Source: Candidatus Aerophobota bacterium | GTDB lineage: Bacteria > Aerophobota > Aerophobia > Aerophobales > B3-G15 | Length of the DNA: 18,377 bases | Reading direction: 5' to 3' | Assembly (NCBI GenBank): GCA_014859225.1 | Contig: JACUUP010000018.1 | Location: 1 to 18,377 of the forward strand | In this document: positions 377-9,891 of the stretch, in pieces | Layout of the letters: each line of letters opens with the position of its first letter | Position numbering within the stretch: position 1 is the first letter of the stretch | Notes under the pieces: model-generated | What the model was told of the DNA's origin: nothing | The model's input: the letters and a program-made list of their open reading frames with translations, nothing else | Databases searched by the model: none | Position numbers and translations under genes: made by a program

Positions 377-1495
377 TTACCATTTGTTTTTACATGCAGG
401 GCAGTGCTGGGGAAAGCATTTTTTGCAGATTTTTTTGCCACATCCCGGGCAGGAAAAATGGCAGTGGGGACAGAGAGTGTGAAGCTGGTCACACAAGAAT
501 ACACCGTAGGTTTCTTCTCCGCAAGCATCACATACAAGTGGTTCTATCGGTTCTCGTTCCTTGAGTAGAGGGTTCCAGAAAAACAGAATGCTTTTTTCCT
601 GAGATTTTCTTTGCACATCATATCTTGTTACCACTTTGGGTAGGTATATCCGGCAAGCGCTGAAAGGTGAAAGAGAAACTTTCAGGGAATACCTATCTTT
701 CAGGTCCTCTTTTTTTCTTTGAAATTCCATATCTACTGCCTTGATTTTGCCTGGAATACTCTCTTTTTCCTCAGGGGAAAGTGATTTTCTCTGTTCTCTG
801 CGTTTTAGCTCCTCTTTCAAATCCTCGTAGTAATTCCCCAGTCTTTCAATATCTCTTCGCATTCTTCTCACGTGGCTTTTCATAAACTCTTTTAGGTTCT
901 CTCTTATCCTGGCTGTAGCCTTTTGCTTTGCCCGTTCTATCACTTCTGGTAAGCAATAGACTTCAAGAATGTCAACAGGCTCTTTTTCCTGAAAACTGAA
1001 GGGAAAGGAAAATGGAAATCTGGTATCCTGAAAAGTTCTGAGGGTTTGTTCGTCCACCATAATTGAAGTAAGGTCTTCTTTTCTCTCATCTGAGATGATA
1101 CTCACCCTGAAGTTAACCACCAGATAAGAGCAGGTTACCCTTTCACTGAAAGTATGACCCAAATTTTTCACATTTATAAACTGGAATTTCTCATCAATTA
1201 GCTCTGGTATTCCCTCTTTTTTTAAACTCACATCGTTTACAGCTACGGCTGTTGTCAATCCAATATCTTCACTCAGGGAAAGGATGTCGTCCAGAAGAGG
1301 AGAACCGTAAGTTATCAGTTTCCCCGGCTCATCGGGAGAAAAAGAAAGTGTTTCATATTCTTCCAGGCAAAGTTTTTTTTGAAGCTGAGGAGGAAAAAGA
1401 GCATCAATGCTTTTCCTGTTCTCTTTTTTAGAGTCTACTATTCCTCCTTTTACCTCAATTATCCTGATTACAAAATCCTGCAGGTTATAGCTCAT
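377..1495 (-). CDS. Coiled-coil, C-terminal cysteine-cluster protein; partner of SNF2 helicase
   Basis: A 372-residue protein of no family I can name with certainty. Residues 1-180 form a mixed alpha/beta N-terminal region. Residues about 185-270 are strongly charged and helical, a likely coiled coil with many Arg/Lys/Glu. Residues 322-368 carry a dense cysteine cluster: CxxC pairs at 322/325, 342/345, 349/352, 357/360 and 365/368, plus C335 and nearby histidines, enough for two or more zinc sites. The start codon overlaps the end of the SNF2 gene by 11 bp and has no clear Shine-Dalgarno site, so translational coupling is likely. The coiled-coil segment ending in a 'y.lkv.lsp.sa..i.lP' strand pattern resembles regions I associate with the C-terminal parts of long HepA-like SNF2 proteins. 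I infer a split accessory domain of the helicase. Function unknown; nucleic-acid or protein binding is plausible. Confidence 0.8.
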   Translation of the reverse strand: MSYNLQDFVIRIIEVKGGIVDSKKENRKSIDALFPPQLQKKLCLEEYETLSFSPDEPGKLITYGSPLLDDILSLSEDIGLTTAVAVNDVSLKKEGIPELIDEKFQFINVKNLGHTFSERVTCSYLVVNFRVSIISDERKEDLTSIMVDEQTLRTFQDTRFPFSFPFSFQEKEPVDILEVYCLPEVIERAKQKATARIRENLKEFMKSHVRRMRRDIERLGNYYEDLKEELKRREQRKSLSPEEKESIPGKIKAVDMEFQRKKEDLKDRYSLKVSLSPFSACRIYLPKVVTRYDVQRKSQEKSILFFWNPLLKEREPIEPLVCDACGEETYGVFLCDQLHTLCPHCHFSCPGCGKKICKKCFPQHCPACKNKW

Positions 1496-3806
1496 AGTCG
1501 TGCTGAAATATTTGCTGGTCGTATTCTTTTATCTTCTGGTACCTTTTTTTGGCCTCAATAAGTTTTTCTCCCAATTTCTCAAACTCCTCCTCTTTGTTAT
1601 CCTGAAGCCATATATCCATGAGTATATCGGAGAAATCTTTGCTATCATCAAGATTTCCAAGAATTGCATCCATCTCTCCTATCACCAGTTCAAACATATT
1701 GATTTTCTTATCCAGTATTTCCAGAAGATAATCCTCCACCGTTCCCCTGGCAGAGAGGTTGAAAATGAAAACGTCTCTTTGTTGACCTATTCGGTGTATC
1801 CTTCCCACTCTTTGCTCTATGCGCATGGGGTTCCAGGGAAGGTCATAGTTAACCATAGTTCTGCAAAAATGCATGTTCTTCCCTTCTCCTCCAATTTCTG
1901 TAGAGATGAGAACTTTAACCTTTTTCTGGAAAAGATTTATGTTCTCTTCCTTTTGCCGGGTAGACAAACTCCCGTTAAAAAGGGTGTAGGGTATTCCTTC
2001 TTTTTGTAGAGTGCTGGCTAAAAAAGTTTGGGTAAGCATGTAGTTAGTAAAGACAATAACCTTATCCTCATTTTTATTCAAAATTTCTATCAGTTTTTTA
2101 GCCTTGGCGGAGGTTGAGATGCTCTTAGATAGTTGAATAAGCTCGTTTACTTTATTCAGGATGGGTGGGGGAAGTCTTTCTTTTTGTACCAGATTAAAAA
2201 GTGTTGATGCTACCGCCTGAGAACTGGAACCTGCCTCCATTTGCAGGAGAGTGCAGGTGAAGCGGTCAAGATGATAAGAGAGGTAGCTTTCTTTGACGAA
2301 GCTGCTGAGCTCAGAGTAAAATTCCTCTTCCCAGTTTTCTGCGTGTAGCCTGAAGGTCGTGGCATACCTTTTCGGTAGATTAATATTCGCCAGGCTCCTG
2401 GTGTTCCTTATCATTACCTGTTGCAGAAGCTCTCTTAGTTTTTCTCTGTTCTCAGGAATTCGGGGGTCACCTCTTTTTACAAAGGATTTTCTGAAAGAAG
2501 AGGCGGTTTGAAGATGTCCCGGTTTCAGCAAGGTAATAAGATTATGAAGTTCCATAAGGTTGTTGTGAATCGGGGTTGCGGTGAGAAGCAGTATGAATTT
2601 TTTCTTCAAGGAGTTTACAAATTTCCAGCTAAGAGTTCTTCTGTTTTTTAAATGATGAGCCTCGTCCAGGATTACTAAATCGTAATCTATACTGCTGACA
2701 GCCTCAAAATTTTTCTCGGATTTGGCAATATGCAGGGAAGCGATTATAAAGGCATTTTTTTTCCAGAAAAGTTTTCCCTCCTTTTGATAGGAGGAATCAT
2801 CCGTGGTGACAAAATTAAGGTTGAATTTGGACTGCATCTCATCTTTCCATTGAACCACAAGAGAAGGAGGGGTGAGAATAAGGACTTTGCGCACCAGTGC
2901 TCTCATAAGGTATTCTTTCAGAATCATTCCTGCCTCAATTGTTTTTCCCAGACCTACCTCATCACAGAGAAGAACTCTTCCCCGGAAGTATTTTAATGTT
3001 TTTCGTACCGCCTCAATCTGATACCAGAACTTTTCTACTCCCCTGAGTTGATTAAGGCACATCAGATGGTCAAATCCTTTAAGCAGGGAAAGCTCAGCAG
3101 CCTGACCTTGCAAGGTATACAAATCAAATGGCTGGTATTGCTTGTTTTGAATAGCCTGAGTAAGCTCCCTATTTTCTTTAAAGGTGAATTTTTGGGCAAT
3201 GTTAAGCTCTGTTAGCACTTTTTCCAGGCTCAGGTTAGTTTCCCCTTTTTGCTTTTCTGTGGGTTCTTTACTTTTTGCCACCTGTTCATATCTCGCATCT
3301 TTTTCCTGGATTTTTTCTCTCACCCTCTGAGCAATCTGCTTTGCCTTCTCCTCTCTCATTTCTTTAAACATCTGGCGTCTTTCTTTTGCCTCTTGTCTTA
3401 TTTGTTTTTCTAAGGAAGAGAGATTTTTCTTCTGCGTGAGCAGGGAGATAATTTTTTCACAACAATCATCAGCCTCCTCTATCCTATCCAGGAAGAGATA
3501 GCTATCGCTCAGATAGTGATATACAAAAGGATTTTGCGGGTCTTCACCTTTAGCCTCCCACAAATGGCTCAGGGCTAACTGCGGCTTATTCTCTCTGTTG
3601 TAGAGATATCCCAAGTAAATGTGGCCAGGAACGAAATGGGGGTCAGATTTTGTAGCCCGGGTAAGTAGCTGAATGGCAACAGAGAAATTTTCCTTCTCTG
3701 CAGCCTGCTGTGCTTCTTCAAAGAGCTCCCAGGCTTTAGTTTTGGCAAAAAAGCGGTGCTCTATTCTTCTTTCCTCTTTTTTTGTGTCCCTTTTTCCTTT
3801 TTTCAT
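1485..3806 (-). CDS. SNF2-family DNA-dependent ATPase with N-terminal TPR-like repeats
   Basis: A 773-residue superfamily 2 helicase-like ATPase of the SNF2/HepA type, expected to translocate on duplex DNA and remodel protein-DNA complexes. Residues about 22-125 look like two to three TPR units (for example 'HFVPGHIYLGYLYNRENKP'), followed by a charged helical linker at 130-190. The motor shows motif I DEVGLGKTIEAG (282-293), motif II DEAH (381-384), motif III LLTATP (407-412) and the C-terminal-lobe motifs TEIGGEG (636-642) and QRVGRIHRIGQ (665-675), so both lobes look intact. It overlaps its cysteine-cluster partner downstream. No Shine-Dalgarno site is visible before the ATG, and a TATAAT box ends 9 bp upstream, so the message may be leaderless. 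A role in defence, DNA repair or RNA polymerase recycling is possible. The sequence does not decide. Confidence 0.9.
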   Translation of the reverse strand: MKKGKRDTKKEERRIEHRFFAKTKAWELFEEAQQAAEKENFSVAIQLLTRATKSDPHFVPGHIYLGYLYNRENKPQLALSHLWEAKGEDPQNPFVYHYLSDSYLFLDRIEEADDCCEKIISLLTQKKNLSSLEKQIRQEAKERRQMFKEMREEKAKQIAQRVREKIQEKDARYEQVAKSKEPTEKQKGETNLSLEKVLTELNIAQKFTFKENRELTQAIQNKQYQPFDLYTLQGQAAELSLLKGFDHLMCLNQLRGVEKFWYQIEAVRKTLKYFRGRVLLCDEVGLGKTIEAGMILKEYLMRALVRKVLILTPPSLVVQWKDEMQSKFNLNFVTTDDSSYQKEGKLFWKKNAFIIASLHIAKSEKNFEAVSSIDYDLVILDEAHHLKNRRTLSWKFVNSLKKKFILLLTATPIHNNLMELHNLITLLKPGHLQTASSFRKSFVKRGDPRIPENREKLRELLQQVMIRNTRSLANINLPKRYATTFRLHAENWEEEFYSELSSFVKESYLSYHLDRFTCTLLQMEAGSSSQAVASTLFNLVQKERLPPPILNKVNELIQLSKSISTSAKAKKLIEILNKNEDKVIVFTNYMLTQTFLASTLQKEGIPYTLFNGSLSTRQKEENINLFQKKVKVLISTEIGGEGKNMHFCRTMVNYDLPWNPMRIEQRVGRIHRIGQQRDVFIFNLSARGTVEDYLLEILDKKINMFELVIGEMDAILGNLDDSKDFSDILMDIWLQDNKEEEFEKLGEKLIEAKKRYQKIKEYDQQIFQHDYEL

Positions 3807-7411: not shown

Positions 7412-8057
7412 TTAGTAATTTTTATTTTCTTGCAGGGTCTCCCACATTGCCATAAAGTTTTCGGGCGGAACATCGGCTTGTATATTGTGGATGCTGGCAA
7501 ATACGTATCCACCCCCGGGGGCAAAATCATCAATTCGTCTTTTAACTTCATCTTTTCTTTAATTCAGCTCTTAGATTTGTTATTCTGGCCGCATCTTTAG
7601 GCTCAGGCCAGTTATAATTGTTAATGTCTTCAATCTTGGCTATATTTGCCAGAGGATGGGATTTTCCTGGCACCTGGTCGAAATAATAGCCATCTTTTGG
7701 GCTTATCCATATACAACCCAATTCGTCAGTAAAGGCTTTGTTACCTTCCATCTCTTTAATTTCTAATTTCCAGGCAGAAGAGTTTTTAAATGAACTTGCG
7801 CGCGTATCAACTTTTAGCGCCCGCTTCATTGCTTCATCTATTTTTGCCAGCCCCTGCAATGTTTCATAATGGGATGATTGCTGCCTGTTTTTAAGTAGAT
7901 AATCTTTACCTAAATAATGGAGCAAATTATTATAAGTGACAGAGTGAATCCCGGTAACACTTGTGGAACCCAAGTCGTAAGGGATGTAGTCAGGCTCTTT
8001 ATGCTTCAAAGTTGTGAGTACTCGTTCACGTGGGGTTAGATTCTGCTTATGGTTCAT
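7412..8057 (-). pseudogene. Uroporphyrinogen decarboxylase-family protein, internally deleted and frame-shifted
   Basis: The N-terminal part (8057 down to a TGA at 7548-7550, 169 residues) starts MNHKQNLTPRERVL and matches URO-D-like proteins: 'LKHKEPDYIPYDLG' and the 'NYNWPEP' region. Directly after the stop, in a different minus-strand frame (7412 to about 7555, stop TAA at 7412-7414), the sequence encodes RRIDDFAPGGGYVF, then HNIQADVPPENF. That is the conserved C-terminus of the same family. Intact relatives are about 340-400 residues, so roughly 130-180 residues of the barrel are missing between the halves. An A-rich stretch (AAGAAAAGA) lies at the junction. A good site GGGAGG (8063-8068) remains before the ATG, so the loss may be recent. 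Relatives include uroporphyrinogen decarboxylase and corrinoid methyltransferases (MtaA/CmuA type); this one looks like the latter group, not HemE. Confidence 0.85.
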
Positions 8058-8134
8058 AAAAACCTCCCGTATCGTTGATGTATCAAATTTTGAGGAATGA
8101 GTCAATAAAATGGCATCTGTTTTTATTAAAACTT

Positions 8135-8514: not shown

Positions 8515-9891
8515 TTATTCCCACATTAGTTTCTTTTTATAAAACCACCTGATAGCCCTATCTATTTCTCGTCTATCTGGTTTTAAGCAACAAAGAAGTG
8601 TATATGGAGTTATTTTGCTGTCCCGTATTTTCCTTTTAAGTTCGGCTAAATAATTCTTTTTTTCTTTAGCATCTGTTATTTTTTTACTGACTTCTTTTTT
8701 CTCCAGGTCAGAGATTATAGATTGCCAGTTTTCGCTGTATCTCAGGCAAAGAACTATTATACTCCACAAATCATTACGGGTAAAAGGGATACATTTTCCC
8801 TCTCTGGGTACATCTAATTTCAGTAATACTTCAGGACCTTTAGGGGATGGCGGCAAAATTTTATTAATTTTGCCATCCTTTCTGATTATACAGGATATAG
8901 CTTGCTGGATTTGCGCATCAGAGTTGATTTTTCCTTGCTCCTTGAGATTTTTGTAAAATTCTGCCACATTATACAGTATTCGGTCAACTTCCTCATAAGT
9001 GAGAGCCGGCTCGGCGTATTCCCGGGGAATAAACTTTGATACAAAATAGCTAAAATCCCAGGTTTTGAAATCTTCTAAACAGGTTTTTCCAAAGGAAAAA
9101 CACTCGGTAAAATGAATGAAACACTGGATATCTTCCCAGGCCTGTTCAATTTCCTCCAGTGGAGTTTTTTTTCTTCGTAGATTCTCCAGGAAGGATACAA
9201 TTTGTCTTTGTTCCAGCATGCAAGCATCATCTATGTACTTGTTGAAGCAGTTTTCCACCTCCTGGATGAGTTCCAGATAATCTTCTTCCTCTTGCGGTAA
9301 AAAATTTTTCTTTTGCCGCTTTCTTTTTTCCATAGCATCTTTCAGAAAGTAAACTTCTAACAGTATCTCTGATAAAATCTTGCGCAGTTCTCTCGGGATA
9401 ACTACAATCTTGTAAAATCTATTTTTTACCGGTGTTCTACCCACGAACACAAGACCCCGTTCCCTTAACTGTCCCAGAGGACTTGATGGTGGCTCATCCA
9501 CCCACCACCAGCTATCCCCGCTTTCATCTGTATTTGCCTGGCGGGACAGAGTCTGAAAAGTTGACCATCCCCCTCTGGATAGTAGGTATTTAAGGATAAA
9601 AAGTGAACTTTTGCTAAGTTCCAGCAAAAGCTTTTCTAAAAATTTTTTGCTGGTGAGGATGTGGGTTATATGCCGGATTTGTTCATCCTTATCCATCCTT
9701 TCTAAGTAACCAAGCTCCTGGCATATTGCCTGGCTCCAGTGGGAAGGAAGCTTATTAAGCTCTATTTTCAGGCGAGCATCTTTACTTATACCTTTCTTAT
9801 CTTCTGCTTCTTTCCATTTTTTTTCCAGTTCTTCCTGGATTGACCTTAGTAGATACCGTTCAATGGAATCATCTCTTCTTCCCTTACTCAT
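8515..9891 (-). CDS. Uncharacterised protein with possible winged-helix (XPB N-terminal-like) region
   Basis: A 458-residue soluble protein that I do not recognise as a named family. Residues 10-50 are charged and helical. Residues about 85-185 run 'SSLFILKYLLSRGGWSTF', then SWWWVDEP (127-134), 'SPLGQLRERGLVFVGR' and a 'VVIPRELRKIL' strand-helix. This arrangement resembles the winged-helix XPB/Ssl2 N-terminal-type domain seen in some bacterial helicase-associated proteins. Residues 185-240 form a lysine-rich helical stretch. The C-terminal half (about 290-458) is helical without a clear motif. It has its own promoter and GGAGG (eight bases before the ATG) and is divergent from ligA. A DNA-related role is a guess. 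It could belong with the SNF2 pair, but hcp and other unrelated genes lie between them. Confidence 0.75.
   Translation of the reverse strand: MSKGRRDDSIERYLLRSIQEELEKKWKEAEDKKGISKDARLKIELNKLPSHWSQAICQELGYLERMDKDEQIRHITHILTSKKFLEKLLLELSKSSLFILKYLLSRGGWSTFQTLSRQANTDESGDSWWWVDEPPSSPLGQLRERGLVFVGRTPVKNRFYKIVVIPRELRKILSEILLEVYFLKDAMEKRKRQKKNFLPQEEEDYLELIQEVENCFNKYIDDACMLEQRQIVSFLENLRRKKTPLEEIEQAWEDIQCFIHFTECFSFGKTCLEDFKTWDFSYFVSKFIPREYAEPALTYEEVDRILYNVAEFYKNLKEQGKINSDAQIQQAISCIIRKDGKINKILPPSPKGPEVLLKLDVPREGKCIPFTRNDLWSIIVLCLRYSENWQSIISDLEKKEVSKKITDAKEKKNYLAELKRKIRDSKITPYTLLCCLKPDRREIDRAIRWFYKKKLMWE

Follow-up and report, generated by a model that had tools for sequence, protein, structure and literature searches.

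A divergent YqhH-YqhG gene pair from a Candidatus Aerophobota bacterium and its likeness to RapA

Introduction

Two overlapping genes, encoding an SNF2 ATPase and a smaller partner protein, are located close to one end of contig JACUUP010000018.1 of a Candidatus Aerophobota bacterium (GenBank assembly GCA_014859225.1). The window analysed here is the entire 18,377-base contig, taken from an incomplete assembly (91% complete, 273 contigs). Here we report that the two genes belong, as a divergent representative, to the YqhH-YqhG two-gene unit, which is widespread and uncharacterised. The YqhH-YqhG pair itself was already known; the new point is the likely identity of the partner as the counterpart of the Spacer and C-terminal half of RapA.

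Escherichia coli RapA releases RNA polymerase that has become stuck. In RapA the motor is followed by the Spacer and then by the C-terminal domain (CTD), and Spacer residue D744 contacts the beta' zinc-binding domain of RNA polymerase (RNAP) (PMC8501970). Bacillus subtilis YqhH has been named HepA/RapA and listed as RNAP-interacting (PMC7385302), and Bacillus thuringiensis YqhH is an ATPase with reported DNA unwinding activity, whose loss lowers survival after UV (PMC10054049); in the portions consulted, these studies treat the motor without YqhG. An extracellular DNA screen in B. subtilis recovered transposon hits in yqhG together with others in mfd and topA (PMC3487849). In a literature search that covered few subscription papers, YqhG was neither linked to RapA nor named as the partner of YqhH.

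Gene organization and protein architecture

The two open reading frames (ORFs) are both on the minus strand, as are all features of the pair given below. They span 377-1495 (372 amino acids, protein P0001, the partner) and 1485-3806 (773 amino acids, protein P0002, the motor) and share 11 bp at 1485-1495, where the stop end of the motor gene meets the start of the partner gene.

P0002 is assigned as a YqhH-type SNF2 ATPase from its ORF, its Pfam matches and its place in the motor tree. The two-lobe motor, delimited by Pfam, tree, AlphaFold and fold search, occupies residues 230-740 (1587-3119) and matches SNF2-rel_dom (2e-37) and Helicase_C (2e-24). Motif reading found the SNF2 motifs all intact: Walker A DEVGLGKT at residue 282 (2940-2963), Walker B DEAHH at residue 381 (2652-2666), TATP at residue 409 and motif VI GRIHRIGQ (1782-1805, with GRIHR at residue 668). 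Ahead of the motor, residues 24-127 (3426-3737) are occupied by TPR-like helical hairpins. The Pfam TPR models are weak here, with a best E-value of 9e-4 that lies under the gathering score. TPR-like is a fair label nonetheless, because AlphaFold predicts consecutive antiparallel helix pairs at 24-37/41-54, 60-72/75-86 and 93-106/112-127 (moderate confidence, pLDDT about 52-79).

P0001 has no accepted family in Pfam, NCBIfam or PADLOC, and was characterized from its ORF, profile hidden Markov models (HMMs), Foldseek and hhalign as a divergent YqhG homologue resembling the RapA Spacer and CTD. Its AlphaFold model, built with 43 natural homologues, has a mean pLDDT of 90.4 and a pTM of 0.73. An N-terminal alpha/beta region (residues 1-156, 1028-1495) is aligned to RapA from residue 712, in the Spacer, by Foldseek/VIA and hhalign. 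It is followed by a long basic antiparallel coiled coil (residues 182-268, 692-952), which AlphaFold, VIA and hhalign match to the C-terminal coiled coil of RapA and which contains 26 K/R against 19 D/E over about residues 182-270. A beta hairpin predicted by AlphaFold lies behind the coiled coil (residues 272-307, 575-682), and the protein ends in a cysteine cluster (residues 322-368, 392-532) with exactly five CxxC pairs, at 322, 342, 349, 357 and 365, which are probable zinc-binding knuckles. The overlap, the intact motor, the TPR-like repeats and the partner's basic coiled coil with five CxxC pairs had all been proposed in a preliminary description made from the sequence, and each was borne out.

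The partner as a YqhG homologue

The Pfam family YqhG (PF11079, annotated as of unknown function) scores P0001 at 13.7 bits (E 0.03), below its gathering cut-off of 25, which places P0001 as a divergent homologue beyond the limits of the curated family; the nearest relative of P0001 likewise reaches only a sub-threshold E of 0.0015. A search of the window's order with PF11079 gave no matches, a result of the limits of the family model and not of absence, and a single-sequence search of the genome contigs with P0001 gave no match since P0001 is too divergent. Profile comparison connects the two groups. An HMM built from non-Bacilli partners alone retrieves Bacilli YqhG at 2.9e-14, and hhalign aligns the partner profile with Bacilli YqhG over 288 columns (99.9%, P 5e-33); the reversed control gave P 0.0044, a level that the coiled coil alone can reach.

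The cysteine cluster is variable. Bacilli YqhG lacks it, and in other lineages the CxxC count runs from none to 28. The partners at loci L052, L054, L056 and L059 (557-750 amino acids) carry 23-28 CxxC motifs in expanded zinc-knuckle-like repeats, next to motors with zinc-ribbon-like N-termini; the motor N-terminus is TPR-like in the window and short in Bacilli. Papers on a periplasmic 'YqhG' of E. coli and Staphylococcus aureus presumably concern a different protein of the same name.

Conservation of the gene pair

A scan of named GTDB genomes yielded 80 SNF2 loci, the best-scoring of a larger number, which therefore describe this subfamily and not all SNF2 proteins. They come from Bacillota, Chloroflexi, Cyanobacteria, Planctomycetota, Acidobacteria, several Proteobacteria, Latescibacterota, Riflebacteria, Actinomycetes, haloarchaea and others. 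The partner lies no more than 300 bp downstream of the motor on the same strand in 73 of the 78 loci with enough downstream room to be tested, and overlaps it in 50. In four of the other five the partner lies at a distance of 0.5-2.1 kb, with a transposase-like ORF splitting one of these four; the fifth has no partner. The partner model is specific, since it matched just 112 ORFs, in 111 loci, among the 3,760 ORFs searched. In L134 (7636-10395, Terrihalobacillus) the partner gene is interrupted by an inserted transposase-like ORF. Two loci were considered as natural motor-partner fusions and rejected: L160 is merely an overlapping frame, and L117 is a deletion junction.

Gene content agrees with gene order. 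Among 290 genomes, 17 contained a motor of the SNF2 subfamily at an E-value no higher than 1e-70, and 14 of these also had the partner by the first models; none of the 290 held the partner without the motor (Fisher p 3e-21 for co-occurrence). The three motor-only genomes comprised one in which a refined model found the partner, one with a divergent partner-like gene and one with a deletion joining the motor to the partner's tail. A second genome in the window's order carries the partner at 51% identity with a similar overlap (17 bp). Scattered genomes of other lineages also carry it. In the loci retrieved, a YqhH-type SNF2 gene sits immediately upstream in all but three genomes, in which the partner gene stands alone and a motor of the same subfamily is encoded on a different contig. 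For Bacilli YqhG, an SNF2 gene adjoined in 20 of 20 loci examined.

The SNF2-partner pair is thus almost certainly a conserved unit with a YqhG homologue. That the two are functionally unrelated neighbours overlapping by chance, as the separation of 3 of 12 partner genes from the motor gene in the first non-Bacilli set might suggest, is already refuted by the neighbourhood counts and by strict co-occurrence even where the genes are unlinked, and has practically no probability left; the arrangement is not accidental, because dozens of genomes show the identical order. The preliminary description had therefore rightly taken the genes as belonging together, homologues not being usually apart, but its label of little-described, if taken to mean unusual, is not supported: the pair is the widespread YqhH-YqhG, and in one Bacillota class 111 of the 151 genomes contain Pfam YqhG.

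Relationship of the motor to other SNF2 proteins

A motor tree of 55 rows, in which RapA sampling is small, clusters YqhH-type, RapA and DrmD-like motors apart from ten SNF2 proteins with a mostly C-terminal motor (100/100). The window motor sits within the YqhH-type rows (a 31-row clade, 87/98), outside the separate RapA clade and the other SNF2 groups, and groups with the motor of G005 at 100/100. Support for the whole YqhH group is just 66/79, which is attributable to the haloarchaeal rows.

Likeness to RapA

When the P0001 model was searched against the PDB with Foldseek, the top four matches were all E. coli RapA (E 1.7e-6 to 4.4e-6, probability 1.00); the next, unrelated match had an E of 0.15, so that RapA alone is significant. 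VIA-align superposes 226-230 residues of P0001 on RapA 712-968, at a Z of 8.1-8.2. The hhalign comparisons with a RapA C-terminal profile agree: the mixed partner profile aligned collinearly over 201 columns (87.8%, P 3.3e-6) and the non-Bacilli partner profile reached 93.5% (P 2.3e-7), against 0.1-0.2% and P 0.26-0.41 in the reversed-sequence controls. RapA is also the motor's best solved-structure match, both by sequence (1e-37) and by fold. We therefore hold with high confidence that the partner corresponds to the C-terminal half of RapA. The earlier suggestion that the partner carries a split-off accessory domain proved right, because the partner matches in fold and profile a segment that is fused to the motor in RapA, the motor's own best PDB match.

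The Spacer/CTD fold of RapA is accordingly present, on the partner (Foldseek E 2e-6, hhalign P 2e-7). The single-chain NTD-motor-Spacer-CTD layout of RapA (NTD, N-terminal domain) is not found: the motor protein ends at 773 amino acids and the C-terminal half is encoded by a separate gene. RapA_C was not found in G000. Because the defining single chain and NTD were looked for and are missing, the pair is not a RapA ortholog, but most likely works like RapA.

Two loci, L208 (1247-4603, minus strand) and L216 (1384-4836, minus strand), encode long fused SNF2 proteins that group near RapA in the tree. The RapA profile matches their C-terminal region (hhalign P 3.4e-5), and the direct match between the partner and these two DrmD-like tails is weak (P 0.026); they are a possible fused counterpart of the motor-partner pair.

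Proposed function and alternative explanations

The two genes probably encode a two-subunit SNF2 remodeller of the RapA/HepA type that acts on stalled transcription complexes. The larger protein would be an ATP-driven double-stranded-DNA motor in which a lineage-specific TPR-like N-terminus replaces the RapA NTD, and the smaller one the counterpart of RapA Spacer plus CTD, extended by a zinc-knuckle tail. The arrangement would amount to the RapA chain cut after the motor, with the two proteins binding each other and the partner completing the motor; the gene overlap would make it easier for translation and assembly to be coupled. The complex may dock on RNAP as RapA does, with part of the contact made through the partner, and may use ATP to move DNA and so backtrack or free polymerase that is stalled or held in post-termination complexes. 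Additional contacts, to the polymerase, to nucleic acid or to other proteins, could come from the zinc tail and from the TPR-like region. Almost as firmly as the partner's identity, we expect that motor and partner form a stable complex; that RNAP is the main target of the pair is an assignment towards which we lean slightly.

Several observations weigh against this proposal. P0001 superposes only loosely on RapA (230 residues at rmsd 9-12, with a flexible arrangement of domains), from which it follows that the subdomains are arranged differently in the two proteins, and rows matching the coiled coil only reach Z 9.3. The Bacilli YqhG profile alone fails to reach RapA (hhalign 8.6%, P 0.004, coiled coil only), so its link to RapA is transitive, via other lineages. 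For the NTD of RapA, the part that touches the zinc-binding domain of RNAP, no counterpart was recognisable, and a 2025 review identifies the RapA of B. subtilis as YwqA rather than YqhH (PMC12448304).

The strongest competing explanation, which we regard as unlikely, is that the two genes encode a conserved motor for DNA repair or fork remodelling that works directly on DNA without RNAP, the partner serving as a DNA-binding processivity or targeting subunit. A basic coiled coil with zinc knuckles would suit DNA binding, and the B. thuringiensis yqhH deletion is UV-sensitive and the protein is reported to unwind DNA in vitro; however, the total helicase activity of the mutant was unchanged (PMC10054049), UV phenotypes also fit the clearing of stalled RNAP, and the nearest solved relative of both halves is RNAP-bound RapA.

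Much less probable still is a role as an anti-phage defence component of the DISARM DrmD, BREX BrxH or Dpd-like kind. The top NCBIfam/PADLOC names for the motor are indeed DrmD and BrxHI, but its scores fall far short of the curated DrmD cut-offs (248.7 bits against 950 and 245.1 against 610). Such a role would fit the AbiEii-like toxin gene at the contig edge, whose C-terminal end lies at 3-209 on the plus strand (PADLOC 8.7e-12, profile positions 197-264 of 270) and is clipped by the contig end. The preliminary description had read this tail as fitting a defence-type neighbourhood; the tail is real yet lies outside the SNF2-partner unit, and the defence link did not hold up. No other DISARM, BREX or Dpd genes were seen among the window ORFs, which were read by eye without a scan, the unit lying near a contig end. 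Across 131 neighbour proteins at 40 non-Bacilli loci, no defence family was matched more than three times and the neighbours mostly had no relation to defence or to each other, and the wide presence in Bacilli noted above is core-like. Some copies do adjoin defence-type genes: the haloarchaeal L190 (2-5799) and L195 (2248-4923) stand beside DUF1156/HmaB-type methylases, L190 also beside an HmaC/DUF499-type ATPase, and one Magnetococcales copy beside BrxC. On account of these three, local recruitment of the pair into defence clusters may occur occasionally, not as a rule.

Elsewhere in the window, a 185-amino acid ORF at 7548-8105 (minus strand) looks like a uroporphyrinogen-decarboxylase-like protein of which just the N-terminal half is present, and is possibly a truncated gene, and a 458-amino acid ORF at 8515-9891 (minus strand) has no accepted match in Pfam, NCBIfam or PADLOC.

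Implications

With these results the Pfam family YqhG gains a fold relative and a testable role. They also suggest that in Bacillus this SNF2 motor, under the names HepA/RapA or YqhH, has been studied without its other half, and the pair is relevant to deciding which SNF2 protein of B. subtilis corresponds to RapA. The broadest reading, to which we give an even chance, is that YqhH-YqhG is a widespread two-subunit counterpart of RapA with swappable TPR-like or zinc modules: the half of RapA behind the motor would exist as a separate, co-encoded subunit in Bacillota, Chloroflexota, Planctomycetota, Proteobacteria, Cyanobacteria, haloarchaea and others, and the pair would act there as an SNF2 transcription-complex recycling factor.

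Comparison with known systems

The pair shares with E. coli RapA the motor, for which RapA is the best PDB match, and the fold and profile of residues 712-968, found in the partner; it differs in consisting of two polypeptides, with a TPR-like region in place of the NTD, added zinc knuckles and a motor outside the RapA clade. With DrmD, BrxHI and DpdE it has a related motor in common, and the fused L208 and L216 proteins carry a region like the RapA C-terminal half, whereas those systems use single long proteins in multi-gene defence sets and the present motor scores below the DrmD cut-off. With the YqhH-YqhG of Bacilli it shares gene order, the overlap or near-overlap, the SNF2 subfamily and a partner core homologous over 288 columns, and it is set apart from them by the cysteine cluster of its partner and the TPR-like N-terminus of its motor, both of which the Bacilli proteins lack.

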